Of a stretch of 64,000 bases of DNA, positions 1,398-7,815 are shown piece after piece; the first letter of the stretch is position 1, and every line of letters starts with the position of its first letter. The notes beneath the pieces are model-generated. The model was given only the letters and a program-made list of their open reading frames with translations, was not told the origin of the DNA and did no database searches. This DNA comes from Chloroflexota bacterium. GTDB taxonomy: Bacteria; Chloroflexota; Dormibacteria; Dormibacterales; Dormibacteraceae. A program made the translations under genes and the position numbers. Location of the stretch: NCBI GenBank assembly GCA_005882115.1, contig VBEG01000021.1, positions 89,498-153,497 of the forward strand, read 5' to 3'.

Positions 1398-3420
1398 CTC
1401 ACCCGAGCCGCTCCTGGGTGCGACGCTGCCGCACATCGCTTACGGCGGCGACTACAACCCCGAGCAGTGGCCGGAAGGGGTCTGGCAAGAGGATGCGCGC
1501 CTGATGCAGGAAGCGGGCGTGAACCTGGTCTCGCTGGGCATCTTCTCGTGGTCACGACTCGAGCCGGCCGAAGGTGAGTTTGAATTCGCTTGGTTCGACC
1601 GCGTGATGGATCTGCTTCATGATGCAGGTGTACGCGTCGACCTCGCCACCGCGACAGCGTCTCCCCCACCATGGCTGTCGCACCGTCACCCCGAGATGCT
1701 CCCTGTCCTCGCCGACGGCGTGAAGCTGTGGCCAGGTGCGCGGCAACACTACTGCCCGAGCAGCCCCGCATACCGGACTGCCGCACGTGGCCTTGTCGAA
1801 GCGATGGCGACTCGGTACGGAAAGCATCCGGCCCTGGCGATGTGGCACGTTGGCAATGAGTTTGGATGCCACGTTCCCGCATGTTGGTGCGATGTGTCTG
1901 CCGAAGCGTTTCGGGCGTGGCTTCGTGACCGCTACGGCTCGATCGAGCGGCTGAACGAGGGGTGGGGAACGGATTTCTGGTCGCAGCGCTATTCCGCGTT
2001 CGAAGAGATCCTTCCTCCGCGCAGGACGCCGACCTGGCCCAACCCGACCCAGCAGCTCGATTTCATGCGGTTTTCTTCCGACACTCTGCTCGAGTGCCAT
2101 GAGGGTGAGCGCGCGATCCTGACCAGGATCACTCCCGACATTCCGGTGACCACCAACTTCATGAGCTTCTTTAAGCCGCTCGATTACTGGAAGTGGGCTG
2201 AGCGCGAGGATATCGTGAGCAACGATTCCTACCCAGACCCTTCGGATCCGCGCTCAGCCATGCGCGCCGCGATGGCAGGTGACCTCATGCGATCGCTCGG
2301 TGGCGGCCGGCCCTGGATCCTGATGGAGCAGACCACGAACCGCGTCAACTGGCGTGACGTCAACGTAGCGAAAGCCCCCGGGCAGATGCGGCTGTGGAGC
2401 TACCAGGCGATCGCCAGAGGCGCCGACGGCGTGATGTTCTTCCAGTGGCGGCAATCGCGCGCGGGAGCCGAGAAGCATCACAGCGCCATGGTGCCCCACG
2501 GCCCGGTCGACGCTTCGCCTTCGTGGAAGGAGGTCGTCCGGCTTGGTCACGAGCTCGGCCGCCTCGACTCGGTCTGCGGCTCGCAGAGTCGAGCCGACGT
2601 GGCCGTCTTGCTCGACTGGGACTCGTGGTGGGCCCTGGAGCTGCCCTCCAAACCATCCAATCGCGTTCGTCAGGTGGACCAGATCGAGACCTATTACCAA
2701 CCGCTGTTCGACCGGAACGTGACCGTCGATTTTGCGCGGCCAGACCACGATCTGTCGCGCTATCGCTTGGTCCTGGTCCCCAACCTCTATCTGGTCAGCG
2801 ATGAGGCCGCCGGCGGGATAGTCCGCTTCGTCGAGTCCGGCGGCACGCTGGTCATGTCGTTCTTCAGCGGCATCGTCGACCAGGCTGAGCACATACGGTT
2901 GGGCGGTTATCCAAAGCCCTTCATTGACCTGCTCGGCGTCCGGGTCATGGACTTCCATCCACTGACCATCGACCAGGAGGTCGAACTCGAATTCAATGAC
3001 GGGAAGCGCGCTCGGGGCGAGCTATGGAGCGAGCACATCGAGCTTGCCGGGGCGGAGGCGGTCGCAAGGTTCAGCAGCTCTGAGCTGGCCGGACGTCCGG
3101 CCATCACTCGTCACGCGGCCGGTTCAGGCCGTGCGTACTACCTCGGCACGCGACCAGACGCCCGGACGATGGAACGCTTGCTGCAGATGGCCTGCGCAGA
3201 CGCGGGTGTGGAGCCCGCCGCCGAGATGCCCCAGGGTGTCGAGGCAGTGAGACGGCAGGGACGTGGGAGATCGTTTCTCTTCGTACTCAACCACCGCGAG
3301 ATCGAGGTCGATGTCCCGCTCAGCGTCGCCGGTCAAAACCTGGTCGACGGCAGCGACTTGCGCCCCGGATTGATGCGCCTCCCGCCGCGGGCTGTTGCCG
3401 TTATCCGGGAGGGCTGGTAA
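1378..3420 (+). CDS. Beta-galactosidase, glycoside hydrolase family 42
   Basis: A 680-residue GH42 enzyme that releases terminal beta-D-galactose; no signal peptide, so cytoplasmic, acting on sugar brought in by the ABC permeases just upstream. The N-terminal YGGDYNPEQWP motif (about residues 22-32) opens the TIM barrel. The acid/base Glu is E161 in WHVGNEFG and the nucleophile is E317 in WILMEQTTNRVNW. A trimerisation/Rossmann-like domain follows (about 395-600), then a small beta domain. The start is a TTG inside the end of the permease gene; no ATG or GTG lies nearer the conserved region. Its last 20 bases overlap the convergent nitroreductase gene. Confidence 0.95.
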   Translation: MAQPRVNSPEPLLGATLPHIAYGGDYNPEQWPEGVWQEDARLMQEAGVNLVSLGIFSWSRLEPAEGEFEFAWFDRVMDLLHDAGVRVDLATATASPPPWLSHRHPEMLPVLADGVKLWPGARQHYCPSSPAYRTAARGLVEAMATRYGKHPALAMWHVGNEFGCHVPACWCDVSAEAFRAWLRDRYGSIERLNEGWGTDFWSQRYSAFEEILPPRRTPTWPNPTQQLDFMRFSSDTLLECHEGERAILTRITPDIPVTTNFMSFFKPLDYWKWAEREDIVSNDSYPDPSDPRSAMRAAMAGDLMRSLGGGRPWILMEQTTNRVNWRDVNVAKAPGQMRLWSYQAIARGADGVMFFQWRQSRAGAEKHHSAMVPHGPVDASPSWKEVVRLGHELGRLDSVCGSQSRADVAVLLDWDSWWALELPSKPSNRVRQVDQIETYYQPLFDRNVTVDFARPDHDLSRYRLVLVPNLYLVSDEAAGGIVRFVESGGTLVMSFFSGIVDQAEHIRLGGYPKPFIDLLGVRVMDFHPLTIDQEVELEFNDGKRARGELWSEHIELAGAEAVARFSSSELAGRPAITRHAAGSGRAYYLGTRPDARTMERLLQMACADAGVEPAAEMPQGVEAVRRQGRGRSFLFVLNHREIEVDVPLSVAGQNLVDGSDLRPGLMRLPPRAVAVIREGW

Positions 3421-3898
3421 CCGGACTCAGGCGAACGACAGGGATCTCGCGGTCGGTGACCTTCTGATATTTGGCGTAGCCCGGCGCGACAGCCACCACC
3501 TTGGAGTACGCCGCCTCGCGCTCGGCGCCCTTGAGCAGCTCGGGCCTCGCCTGGAATTTGAGTTTCCCGACCTCGAGCCAGACCTTGTCGGGATTCTTGG
3601 CGAGGTTGATGAACCAGCCCGGGTGCGAGGCGGCCCCACCCTTGGAGCCGATGACGAGCCACGCCCCATCACCCTCAGGGAAGCCTCCGAGGACATGCGT
3701 GTACTCCTTGCCCGTTTTCGCGCCGATGGTCGTCAGCAGGACGAGCGGAAAGCCCCGCATCGTGGGCGGCTCAGGGCCCGCGTTCTTGCGATAGCGAGTG
3801 ATCTGGCCCGCCATCAACGGCTGGAGGTATTTGATCAAGCCCCACGGAGTCCGCGAGCCACGGGTGCCTCGCGGGGTGATCTCGAGCTTGTCGCCCAT
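3401..3898 (-). CDS. Deazaflavin (F420)-dependent nitroreductase family protein (DUF385/Ddn-like)
   Basis: About 165 residues with the split-barrel fold signature of the Ddn/DUF385 family: LLTTIGAKTGKEYTHVLGGF followed by WLVIGSKGG and HPGWFINLAKNP. Known members bind cofactor F420 and reduce nitro-aromatics or quinones. Family membership is read from the sequence; use of F420 here is inference. An ATG at 3898 is preferred over a GTG six bases upstream. It sits 45 bases downstream of a lipoprotein gene on the same strand and converges on the beta-galactosidase, with a 20-base overlap at their ends. Presence of this family fits an actinobacterial or chloroflexotal host. Confidence 0.85.
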   Translation of the reverse strand: MGDKLEITPRGTRGSRTPWGLIKYLQPLMAGQITRYRKNAGPEPPTMRGFPLVLLTTIGAKTGKEYTHVLGGFPEGDGAWLVIGSKGGAASHPGWFINLAKNPDKVWLEVGKLKFQARPELLKGAEREAAYSKVVAVAPGYAKYQKVTDREIPVVRLSPVTSPPG

Positions 3899-3943
3899 CG
3901 ACACAGCTAAATCGCCGGCCCGGGCAAGACTATTCCGCCTGGT

Positions 3944-4915
3944 TTACCCGCGGCCGGGATTGTCAGCCGTCGCGGTGACCACCGCGGCGTTGACCGGCTT
4001 GCCGCTGATGGTGCAGGCGACAGTCGTGGTGGCGTTGTAACCGACGTCAGGCTGCACCACCGCGCTGCATGTCCCGATCACCTGCTTGCTCACCGGGTCG
4101 GCCATCGTGAAGGCGACGGTCGATGGGCCGCGGGCGCCGGTCGCGCCGCCTAGGTTCTTGAGCTTGGCCGAGACGATGCACGGAGACGAGCAGGCCGATG
4201 TGTCCACCGACACCACCGTGTAGATCGGCGGCAAGGTAGACAAGTTGCTGAAATTGAGCACGTCGGATGGGGCGTTGATTCCGAAGTCGCGATCGACGTT
4301 GGTGTATCGCAGGTCGGCCTCACTGATCCCATCGACAACGACGCCTTCTTTGAGATGCACTCGCAAGAGCTCGTACGGCGCGGTGGATGCGATGTAAACG
4401 TCGGCCCGAACGCCGGAAAGCTCCACGGCATCGACGCCGCCCACCGTCTGGTGGTCTGTTCGCTTGGTCACCGCGGGCCCGAGGAAGTTCGTGCGGAAGG
4501 CGCTACCGTCGGTGAGGTCGGGCAGGCTGGGCACCAGGCTCGCGGTGTCCTTCCACCACGCGTTGCCTGCAGCTTTGGCGATGCTCTGGGAAAGAGGGTC
4601 GGTCCCGAGGTGCTTGGCGAGGAAGGCCTGGCCGCGAAAGTAGGCGTCGCCGCCGACGATGATCGCCTCGACCTGGTCGGTGCTCGACTTGACCGTGACA
4701 TGCCGCGTCGCGGGCCGGGTCAGCTGCATGTCGATCGTCCAGCCGGTTCCGTCGGCGGTGTAGTCGCCGGCCAGCTCAAAGCTGTTCGCCGATGACAGCA
4801 TCGACTGCACACCGCTCTCCAGGGCGCGGGTCGCCGGCAGCCCGAACGGGTCGCACGCCGCTGTCAGAACGATGACCAACGCCAGTGCTGGAGAGAGCTT
4901 TAGCGGGCCATTCAT
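3944..4915 (-). CDS. Secreted lipoprotein, LppX/LprAFG-like fold suspected
   Basis: 323 residues. The N-terminus MNGPLKLSPALALVIVLTAAC is a lipoprotein signal with the lipobox ending at C21, so the protein should be anchored outside the membrane. The next about 200 residues (repeated blocks about a variable tested for membrane or lipid binding, e.g. GDAYFRGQAFLAKHLG) resemble mycobacterial LppX/LprG-type lipoproteins, but this is a weak impression. A C-terminal portion (about 235-323) carries a Cys pair near SACSSPCIV and looks like a CARDB/beta-sandwich module. An open frame extends 5' to 5596, but that part is antisense to the neighbouring membrane protein. Starts 48 bases from the divergent RnfD-like gene. 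Confidence 0.72.
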   Translation of the reverse strand: MNGPLKLSPALALVIVLTAACDPFGLPATRALESGVQSMLSSANSFELAGDYTADGTGWTIDMQLTRPATRHVTVKSSTDQVEAIIVGGDAYFRGQAFLAKHLGTDPLSQSIAKAAGNAWWKDTASLVPSLPDLTDGSAFRTNFLGPAVTKRTDHQTVGGVDAVELSGVRADVYIASTAPYELLRVHLKEGVVVDGISEADLRYTNVDRDFGINAPSDVLNFSNLSTLPPIYTVVSVDTSACSSPCIVSAKLKNLGGATGARGPSTVAFTMADPVSKQVIGTCSAVVQPDVGYNATTTVACTISGKPVNAAVVTATADNPGRG

Positions 4916-4963
4916 CGCGAACCATTCGGGTAACGGGTGGAGTTGAATACGCGTTACCCGACC

Positions 4964-6643
4964 ATGGCTGCGAAGCGACGAACCGTCAACATCCGCGGCC
5001 GCGAGTATCCCGTCCTGCTTCCCAGCATCCGCGACCCCCGCCTTCACGTCGCCGTCGTGCTCCTGACGCTCCAGGGTCTCGGCCAGACGGTGCTCAACTT
5101 CCGGCTGTCGATCGCGCAGATCCTGATCTGCCTTGCGACCGGCGCGCTGATCGAGTTTGGATACGGCTTCTTCAAGGACAAGGTGATCATGTGGCCGGCG
5201 AGCGGCCTGCTGACGGGCAACAGCGCGGCTTTCATCCTCCGAGTCCCCGGCACATTGCACGGCCAATGGTGGAGCACGCGGGGGATGTGGATCTTCATCG
5301 GCGTGGTCGCCGTCTCCATGGCGTCGAAGTATCTGATTCGGTGGCGCGGCCGGCACATCTTCAACCCCTCCAACCTCGGTCTCGTGCTCGCGTTCGTCGC
5401 GCTCGGGCCCCAGTACACAGAACCGCAGGACCTGTGGTGGATTCCCATGGGGCCGTGGATGATCGTCACCTACGCGATCCTGATCGGCGGCGGGCTCTTC
5501 ATCGGGTGGGAGCTGAAGCTTCTCGGGCTCGAGCTGGGATACATGGCGGCTTTTGCGTTGTTCGTCGCGCTGGCCCTGATCCCGGTGCCGGACCACTGCA
5601 TGATCGCCAGCTGGTACGCGACGCCGATGTGCGGGCAGCAGCTCTGGCAGATCCTCGTGACCTCGCCGGAGGTGTTGATCTTCGCGTTTTTCATGGTTCC
5701 CGATCCAAGAACGGTTCCGGACGGCCAGGCCGGGCGCTTTGTGTTCGGTGTGCTGGTGGCGTTCCTTTCCGTCGTCCTGTTGGGACCGACGACGCTCGAG
5801 TTCTGGACGAAGACCGCGATCCTCGCGAGCCTCGTCTTCGCATGCGCCGGCCGTTTCGCGCTTGGCCGGCTCCTGGCGCCGTTGGAGGAGGGCGGCGGCC
5901 CCGTCGACGCGGTCCGCCGGCTGGGTCTGCGCGCACCGGTCGCACTCGGCGTGAGCCTGCTGTTGCTCGCGGCGCTGCCCCTGTCGGCCGAGTTCTCGCT
6001 ACACGGAACCATCCCGGCGCCCGAATTGCCCGACGGAACCCGACCGACGCTCGCCTTGGTCATTGGCCCGAACGCTGTCGACATCGGGTCGTGGACGGTC
6101 AACGCCGCCGGCCAGGCGCTGCCGCCTCCGGGCGGCACAACGCCGACCCAGGCGTCATCGAGGGTGTGGTTCCTGCCCCCAATTCCGCCGGTCACATTGC
6201 CAGACAACGTCACGGCATTCGATTCGACGATCACCCAGACGAAGGCCGACACTTGGGCGCGCCAGGTCGTGCTCGACCTGATGATCGAGTCGGAAGCGCG
6301 ACGTGCGCACGACCTCACGCTCGCATCGGTAGGTGCCACCGGCGACGGCCTGACGGAGTTTACGGACGTGATCAAGCAGGACATCAAGGCCGGCAAGAGC
6401 GTTCTGAAGACCTACAGCTTCGATCGCATCCAGCTCACGCTGTTCCTCCCCAAGCTGAGCACGCAGGCGAGCAGGTTGGTCGGCGTGAGCCTGCATGGGA
6501 CATCGACCTTGATCACCCGCGACGCGTCGGGAAAGGTCCTTTCCCAGCAGACGCAGCCCTACGCGAAGAGCTGGGGCCTCGGCGGGTCGAACGCCAACCC
6601 GGACCCGATCATCAACGACTACACCGACCTCAGCCTGGCCTAG
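4964..6643 (+). CDS. RnfD/NqrB-family membrane protein with extra C-terminal domain, orphan
   Basis: About 559 residues. Residues 1-340 form a multi-span membrane domain with RnfD/NQR2 signatures: a cytoplasmic start, WPASGLLTGNSAAFIL, the IFNPSNLGLVLAF motif, and FFMVPDPRTVPDG, which matches the position of the RnfD/NqrB TDP(V/R)T segment. I do not see the (S/T)GAT motif that carries covalent FMN in Rnf/Nqr enzymes. Residues about 340-559 are a non-membrane domain of unknown fold after a last membrane segment (SLLLLAALPLSAEFSLHG). No other Rnf or Nqr subunit is nearby. ATG at 4964 is chosen over a GTG at 4937. It is divergent from a lipoprotein gene only 48 bases away. Confidence 0.75.
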   Translation: MAAKRRTVNIRGREYPVLLPSIRDPRLHVAVVLLTLQGLGQTVLNFRLSIAQILICLATGALIEFGYGFFKDKVIMWPASGLLTGNSAAFILRVPGTLHGQWWSTRGMWIFIGVVAVSMASKYLIRWRGRHIFNPSNLGLVLAFVALGPQYTEPQDLWWIPMGPWMIVTYAILIGGGLFIGWELKLLGLELGYMAAFALFVALALIPVPDHCMIASWYATPMCGQQLWQILVTSPEVLIFAFFMVPDPRTVPDGQAGRFVFGVLVAFLSVVLLGPTTLEFWTKTAILASLVFACAGRFALGRLLAPLEEGGGPVDAVRRLGLRAPVALGVSLLLLAALPLSAEFSLHGTIPAPELPDGTRPTLALVIGPNAVDIGSWTVNAAGQALPPPGGTTPTQASSRVWFLPPIPPVTLPDNVTAFDSTITQTKADTWARQVVLDLMIESEARRAHDLTLASVGATGDGLTEFTDVIKQDIKAGKSVLKTYSFDRIQLTLFLPKLSTQASRLVGVSLHGTSTLITRDASGKVLSQQTQPYAKSWGLGGSNANPDPIINDYTDLSLA

Positions 6644-6644
6644 C

Positions 6645-6684
6645 TTCCCCTCCTCACCTCGCTGGGGAGGGTTAGGGTGAGGGC
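6645..6684. repeat. Dispersed palindromic intergenic repeat, copy 1
   Basis: Read on the minus strand it runs CCCTAACCCTCCCCAGC then GAGGTGAGGAGGGG. The same wording recurs at 15184-15213 (CCCTGACCCTCCCCAGC), and a related palindromic form occurs at 10821-10862 and 40364-40394. This copy lies between two convergent genes and contributes the last few codons of the AhpD-like gene, so it may also act as a transcription-ending hairpin. Confidence 0.6.
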
Positions 6685-7259
6685 GCGGCTGCGGCGGGGA
6701 CCCCGTTGGGTTCGTATATCGCCGGTGGTTCGATGCCGAACGTGTCGGCGAGTCGCACGAAGAGGTTGAATAGCGCCGCGTCGTAGGCGGCCTCTGCGAT
6801 CTGCTCGTCGCTCCAGCCCGCATCGCGCAGCTCCTGAACCCGCTCGTCCGTGACGCGATACGCGTGCCGCGTGATCGTTTCGACGAAGTCGAGCAGCAGG
6901 CGATGCGGCCGGTCCAGGCCCGCCGCGTCGAGGTCGCCGTTGCGCAGCGCTTCCGCGACCGGCCCGTACGCCTCGCCCTGCAACTGCAGGAACCAGCTAT
7001 GCGAGCTCAGTCAATAACGGCACTTGTTCAGCGCGGAAACGTACGAGGCGACCATCTCGTGCTGCGCGCGGGTGAGCGCACCGTCGGTGAAGTGAAGACG
7101 CGACGCGGTGTCGATGGCGGCGAGGAAGTCTGGCCGCAGGCTCATCGTCCGCAGGATCTCCGGCACGACCTTGGCCACGCTCTGAGCCTTGCTCCGGGCA
7201 TAGATCTCCGCCAGCGGCCCTTGCGCCTGCGATTCCGTGACCATCTTGATGCGTGCCAC
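6672..7259 (-). CDS. AhpD-like peroxidase, probable selenoprotein (CxxU; in-frame TGA at 7011-7013)
   Basis: Two halves of one carboxymuconolactone decarboxylase/AhpD-fold protein are in the same frame, separated only by TGA at 7011-7013. Reading TGA as selenocysteine gives 195 residues, normal for the peroxidase-related family. The active site becomes C80-R-Y-U83-L-S-S-H87, exactly the CxxCxxxH of AhpD with Sec in place of the second Cys. E68 lies 12 residues before C80, as E118 does before C130 in M. tuberculosis AhpD, so the proton-relay set is intact. Role inferred: thiol/selenol peroxide reduction in the cytoplasm. A GTG start at 7259 gives the family-like MARIKMVTESQAQGPLAEIY; ATG 7244 is an alternative. 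A nonsense mutation or read error of a TGC/TGT codon is the main alternative. The upstream neighbour is a truncated haemoglobin. Confidence 0.8.
6972..7013 (-). promoter_or_regulatory. Candidate bacterial SECIS element after the UGA
   Basis: Counting from the base after UGA, nucleotides 6-10 (CUCGC) pair with 35-39 (GCGAG), and nucleotides 21-25 (CCUGC) pair with 30-34 (GCAGG), leaving a 4-base apical loop AGUU and a 10-base bulge on the 5' side that contains U residues. The loop begins 26 bases after UGA, inside the range known for bacterial SECIS elements, and has a G among its first two bases, as SelB-binding loops do. Folding was done by eye. Confidence 0.6.
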
Positions 7260-7326
7260 TTGCCCGGGTAACGAACGCCGCGCGCCGACGGTTACGAGAG
7301 TCTTCCCGATTATGGGAAGTACCGGC

Positions 7327-7815
7327 CTAGGGCCGGGGAGGAGGCTCCTGCAGTCCGTCCCAGGACCAGTGCGGCATCGGTTGGTTCGGATCGACCCGTG
7401 CGCCGGGCGGCGCGTAAGAGTTGACCTCGCGCGTCGCCCAGTGCATGTAGTCGCTGAGCGCCCGGCGAAACTCGGGCTCGTCGGGGAGCTCGGCATCGTC
7501 CATGGCTCGGATGAAGCATGTCTCGAAGCGGTCCCCCATCTCGTCGGGCGCGCCCTGGCCGGCATGGATGGTGAGCATCCCCGAGTGACCGCCGAGCACG
7601 TTCGAGTAGCGAGGAGGACCTCCCAGGACCTCAGCCCAATAGGCGGCGAGATTCTCGACGTGACGCGGGCTCAGGCCATGGGAGAACGGGTGGTTGAGCT
7701 CCGGATCCTGGAGGCAGCGTTCGTGGGTCGCGGCGGCCAGGGCGAGGAAGGCTTGTTCGCCTCCGGCGAACTCGTAGAGGGATGGACGCGCCCTGCGGGA
7801 GTCTGGTTCAGTCAT
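7327..7815 (-). CDS. Truncated haemoglobin (group II-like)
   Basis: 162 residues. The globin core runs from about residue 10 (SLYEFAGGEQAFLALAAATHERC) to about 130, with HVENLAAYWAEVLGGPP and the proximal-His segment GMLTIHAGQG. Group II truncated globins bind O2 or NO and are usually linked to oxidative or nitrosative stress. A Pro-rich tail (PMPHWSWDGLQEPPPRP) ends the protein. It is 67 bases upstream of, and co-oriented with, the AhpD-like selenoprotein candidate, so the pair may be co-transcribed for peroxide or NO handling; truncated globins are found beside peroxidase-like genes elsewhere, but the link here is inference. Confidence 0.85.
   Translation of the reverse strand: MTEPDSRRARPSLYEFAGGEQAFLALAAATHERCLQDPELNHPFSHGLSPRHVENLAAYWAEVLGGPPRYSNVLGGHSGMLTIHAGQGAPDEMGDRFETCFIRAMDDAELPDEPEFRRALSDYMHWATREVNSYAPPGARVDPNQPMPHWSWDGLQEPPPRP

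Follow-up and report, generated by a model that had tools for sequence, protein, structure and literature searches.

An AhpD-like selenoprotein gene interrupted by an in-frame UGA and its RnfD-like neighbour in Dormibacteria

We find that a gene on the minus strand of the window, as we call the whole 64,000-nucleotide stretch analysed here, almost certainly encodes a genuine AhpD-like 'peroxidase-related' selenoprotein (hereafter Sec-AhpD), which is part of a co-inherited unit with an RnfD-like protein and a lipoprotein. The initial annotation had described an AhpD-fold gene split by a TGA at this position; its coordinates hold, and the strand, which it left unnamed, is the minus strand (Table 1). 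The frame starts with GTG at 7259-7257, aligned with ATG or GTG starts of the relatives, and terminates with TAA at 6674-6672, the TGA at 7013-7011 being its sole interruption. When this TGA is read as Sec, the translation gives C80-R-Y-U83-L-S-S-H87 with E68 located 12 residues N-terminal of C80, so that the residues and the spacing are as originally claimed. The further claim of a CxxU selenoprotein with a SECIS element is borne out by the Sec machinery of the genome, the TGA shared by 48 of 48 loci, the conservation of the hairpin and the predicted structure. Standard gene callers are expected to split or truncate such a gene.

Table 1. Features of the Sec-AhpD region (positions in the window)
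Feature	Position	Strand	Remarks
Predicted lipoprotein, divergent from RnfD-like gene	3944..4915	-	synteny
Palindromic GTAACG-N16-CGTTAC, between RnfD-like and lipoprotein genes	4930..4957		6 nt before ATG 4964
NQR2/RnfD-like membrane protein, convergent with Sec-AhpD	4964..6643	+	559 aa; Pfam PF03116 E 1.6e-5
Sec-AhpD gene	6672..7259	-	195 codons, one in-frame UGA, then stop TAA
SECIS hairpin UCCUGC-AGUU-GCAGGG	6976..6991	-	apical loop AGUU at 6982-6985; 25 nt UGA to loop
Sec83 codon UGA, motif C80-R-Y-U83-x3-H87	7011..7013	-	TGA in 48/48 named loci, 28/28 aligned relatives
Promoter-like element GTAACC-N16-CGTTA	7269..7295	-	ends 9 nt before Sec-AhpD start codon
Truncated-haemoglobin-like protein, upstream of Sec-AhpD	7327..7815	-	Pfam PF01152 E 4.8e-11

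A close homologue with one TGA was found in 29 of the 61 genomes compared. The named-genome scan gave 48 loci with 60-86% identity to Sec-AhpD. They belong to Chloroflexi and Candidatus Dormiibacterota MAGs and, in a few cases, to records of Anaerolineae, Ktedonobacterales, Thermomicrobiales, Acidobacteria and Proteobacteria, the Acidobacteria and Proteobacteria records possibly being misbinned. At the residue-83 codon, all 48 loci have TGA. The clade of the window in a 47-sequence tree comprised 27 members, all with Sec, with support of 100/99 and a branch of 1.84. The expectation that homologues have Cys at the UGA position held for nine distant ones (L157-L162, L168, L174, L175), but not for the close loci, all of which have TGA. 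Being conserved and aligned with Cys in homologues, the in-frame UGA is of the kind that marks a bacterial selenoprotein. Non-synonymous change per codon comparison was 0.26 before and 0.24 after the UGA; because protein-altering changes are equally rare on the two sides, the 3′ half is not decayed, and the decay in close relatives that had been raised as a counter-indication was not seen, the 3′ half there being intact and conserved. In one congener (G006:C158; L035/L129), the gene is frameshifted around residue 134, which may reflect a mistake in the assembly.

TGA was also present at the Sec position in a distant Chloroflexota CxxU group (L164-L167, L169-L173, L176, L038 and L083). The hairpins of this group are unlike the AGUU type, as exemplified by that downstream of the UGA in L176, GACCUCCGUGCUGAGGUC.

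The hairpin with an AGUU loop that had been noticed after the UGA is present as CCUGC-AGUU-GCAGG. The bSECIS limits are a loop of 3-9 nt with G in the first two loop positions, a UGA distance of 16-37 nt, a stem of 4-16 bp and an MFE of <= -7.5 kcal/mol (PMC13188914), and the Sec-AhpD hairpin lies within all of them, with its AGUU loop, spacing of 25, six-pair stem (U-G counted) and energy of -8.3 kcal/mol. The hairpin alone is weak evidence, because 14.8% of 60-mers drawn at random from the window satisfy the limits as coded here, and for the same reason we rejected the hairpin energy by itself as evidence of a SECIS. An Rfam scan of the window gave two tRNAs only and no match to a SECIS family. 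What places the SECIS above chance is the TGA in 48 of 48 loci together with the invariance of codons 90-94 and a stem change that is both silent and compensatory. These five codons (TTC CTG CAG TTG CAG) showed zero synonymous variation among 28 genes, in 378 pairwise comparisons per codon, against an average of 0.42 per comparison over the gene; the run of five invariant columns had a permutation p of ~1e-4, a value that ignores relatedness, and the hairpin sits in the longest synonymous-invariant stretch of the gene. Among the 29 nearest sequences no covariation was detected because the stem is invariant there, and a wider set was needed. In that set, the stem pair at columns 25-36 changed from C-G to U-A in four distinct rows, namely Anaerolineae-type records and L114, and the change was silent on both sides (CTG to TTG and CAG to CAA). 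As the stem varies at only two pairs, the covariation amounts to a single compensatory change, confined to one pair. Even in lineages with protein identity as low as 60%, the SECIS is conserved nearly base for base.

There is next to no probability that the TGA is the true stop of a pseudogene or a miscalled TGC or TGT, a reading favoured by the fragmentation of the source assembly (147 contigs) but contradicted by the TGA shared by 48 separately recorded loci, the purifying selection on both sides of it and the conserved SECIS. It is also very improbable that the stop is functional and that two polypeptides are made, the first of 82 aa and the second initiated at a start further downstream. 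Table-11 ORFs do flank the TGA (7011 and upstream; 6672-6983); however, the stop would separate the catalytic pair C80/U83, the distant homologues are single chains with Cys at the Sec position, and the invariance 3′ of the UGA fits a SECIS.

The search for the Sec machinery, proposed as a check of the Sec reading, found selA, selB, selD and tRNA-Sec in the same genome. The tRNA-Sec scored 72.5 bits (gathering score 47) and has a UCA anticodon in its printed sequence, and selB (346.8 bits) and selA (518 bits) adjoin each other on contig C33; selD scored 344 bits. Across the 61 genomes searched, tRNA-Sec was above the cut-off in 45, the present genome counted. As a separate observation, the active site of this selD (L085, G000:C39:17433-18341) is encoded by GAGCAC, that is, with Cys, whereas most congeners and sister genomes carry a selD with a TGA in frame (GAG-U-AC in L049 and L050), suggesting an apparent Sec-to-Cys switch in selD of this species.

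Sec-AhpD matched Pfam CMD (E 2.1e-10) and the TIGR01926 model with 86.9 bits (cut-off 81.8). The latter match runs in one stretch from residue 3 to 178 and therefore crosses the TGA, and 27 of the 27 members of the Sec-AhpD alignment matched this model. A 2005 study described AhpD-like CxxU selenoproteins with 27 sequences (PMC1088965), AhpD-like 1 (COG2128) numbered 299 sequences in 2008 (PMC2398784), and a 2026 review lists TIGR01926 with CxxU selenoproteins (PMC13188914). Since Sec-AhpD passes a model already so listed, we consider it a new subfamily, all of it with Sec, within a kind of selenoprotein that was known before. It shares with the TIGR01926 CxxU selenoproteins the score above the cut-off, the replacement of the second Cys of CxxC by Sec and a SECIS after the UGA, and differs from them in its separate all-Sec clade, its near-invariant AGUU SECIS and its linkage to the RnfD-like gene. 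NF041238 (AhpD_rel_CFYUT) and NF053654 (YciW-related) are likewise AhpD-related families that NCBI annotates as (seleno)proteins, but the score against NF041238 was 75.9 bits, below its cut-off of 175, and NF053654 was matched only weakly, in 8 of the 27 members.

The AlphaFold2 model of Sec-AhpD had a mean pLDDT of 90.3, and the best PDB matches by Foldseek were the AhpD-like peroxidase-related proteins 6k40 (Deinococcus radiodurans), 3c1l, 2oyo, 2prr and 2pfx (TM-score 0.75-0.79). The fold is the same, although identity to 6k40, 3c1l, 2oyo and 2prr is 24-28%, and the Sec position is occupied by Cys in the alignments with 2prr and 3c1l. The match with Mycobacterium tuberculosis AhpD (1knc) was weak (TM 0.53, E 0.03), and that protein has Cys instead of Sec. 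Nevertheless, of the residues that M. tuberculosis AhpD uses, Glu118, Cys130, His132, Cys133 and His137 with one water, the spacing of E118/C130/C133/H137 equals that of E68/C80/U83/H87 (PMC3141380). By spacing, the position of His132 corresponds to Y82 in Sec-AhpD; P. aeruginosa PA0269 also has Tyr at the equivalent position. The AhpD-type active site is present, E68, C80, U83 and H87 being invariant in two alignments of Sec-AhpD relatives, and C-x-x-U/C-x3-H with E at -12 was present in 21 of the 22 distant homologues scanned, the sole exception being a paralogue in the same genome (L163).

Judged from the family and the active-site residues, Sec-AhpD is probably a peroxidase. SelB with Sec-tRNA would recognise the hairpin after the UGA at 7013-7011 and insert Sec83. 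In AhpD, the second Cys of CxxC is the attacking one; by analogy, the E68/H87 relay would activate the U83 selenol for attack on a hydroperoxide or other electrophile, C80 would then resolve U83 as a selenenylsulfide, and a cellular dithiol would reduce the C80-U83 selenenylsulfide. We regard it as unlikely, though worth weighing, that the same selenoprotein has another function, either as a selenol-based reductive dehalogenase-like enzyme or as a protein-disulfide or adaptor reductase. The structure search also matched the CMD-fold debrominase Bmp8 (6ohi/6ohj, E ~1e-3), and in known systems AhpD acts as the adaptor of AhpC (PMC3141380). However, the peroxidase-related proteins gave the better structural matches, and the relay of E at -12, CxxU and His at +4 is that of AhpD, both of which argue for the peroxidase.

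The gene most steadily associated with Sec-AhpD encodes the RnfD-like protein. It missed the family cut-offs (24.9 versus 27.7 bits for PF03116 and 16 versus 207 for TIGR01946) and is only a distant relative of NQR2/RnfD. It was found in 29 of 29 genomes with Sec-AhpD versus 5 of 32 genomes without it; that is, among the 61 genomes, 29 had both, none had Sec-AhpD only, 5 had the RnfD-like gene only and 27 had neither (Fisher 2e-12, uncorrected for relatedness). Single absences carry little weight because the genomes compared are draft MAGs. Within 4 kb of Sec-AhpD, the RnfD-like gene was present at 33 of the 48 named loci; in the sister family f3 its orientation differs and it is still a few kb from Sec-AhpD. 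Outside the class this link was not observed: no RnfD-like gene was found within 4 kb of the distant members in Anaerolineae, Ktedonobacterales and Thermomicrobiales, and no common partner near Sec-AhpD in the Ktedonobacterales, Acidobacteria, Thermomicrobiales and Anaerolineae records. The predicted lipoprotein gene, for which a profile search gave no family match, shares its upstream region with the RnfD-like gene. Sec-AhpD, the RnfD-like protein and the lipoprotein form a small co-inherited unit with a rare promoter-like element in common and may have a joint function. A gene of the F420H(2)-dependent quinone reductase family (PF04075; 3401-3904, minus strand) adjoins the lipoprotein gene in several relatives, not in all.

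The initial annotation had paired Sec-AhpD with the truncated haemoglobin. This gene is indeed a frequent neighbour, co-directional with Sec-AhpD and upstream of it in many relatives and within 4 kb at 23 of the 48 loci, but it is kept at 75% identity in two genomes without Sec-AhpD (G008 and G016), is missing from f3 genomes having Sec-AhpD, and is separated from Sec-AhpD by the latter's own promoter-like element. The case for the globin as a partner is therefore weak, and the RnfD-like protein is the steadier one.

A whole-genome search located the pattern GTAAC-N17-CGTTA at three sites, namely before Sec-AhpD, in the gap between the RnfD-like and lipoprotein genes, and on contig C110, whereas the reversed control pattern had zero occurrences in this genome. 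The element in the gap matches on both strands because it is a perfect palindrome; this inverted repeat is kept in most relatives and resembles a bidirectional promoter or operator. The C110 copy (L084 2985-4168, G000:C110) stops 5 nt short of the GTG that opens an ORF (3017-4168) whose translation reads as a putative serine-hydrolase-like or serine beta-lactamase-like protein. Within the genus, only G007, G008 and G016 lack Sec-AhpD, and all three lack the RnfD-like gene and the element as well. The closeness of the element to the start codon points to a leaderless promoter of the ECF type. It is quite possible, if not the reading we favour, that the element instead serves a dimeric regulator as its palindromic operator: the perfect inverted repeat GTAACG-N16-CGTTAC in the gap speaks for it, but at Sec-AhpD the start-proximal half is better kept than the far half (GTAGCC and ACACCT in relatives), and the distance to the start codon is nearly fixed, as for the -35/-10 of a leaderless promoter.

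One may tentatively picture an undescribed Dormibacterota redox unit, rather doubtful as a whole, in which the RnfD-like protein and the lipoprotein, at the membrane, would feed or sense electrons or oxidants, Sec-AhpD in the cytosol would reduce a (hydro)peroxide or other electrophile, and one dedicated regulator would co-induce them via the GTAAC-N17-CGTTA leaderless promoters. A literature search for Sec in Dormibacteria, largely confined to openly accessible papers, found no report, and within that scope the Sec-AhpD branch appears to be new. The RnfD-like membrane protein that constantly accompanies it is unstudied, and this pairing may likewise be new. These results place a well-supported, apparently Sec-only AhpD-like branch in soil Dormibacterota and other Chloroflexota, and the RnfD-like/lipoprotein pair with the shared element gives a concrete lead to the working partners of Sec-AhpD.
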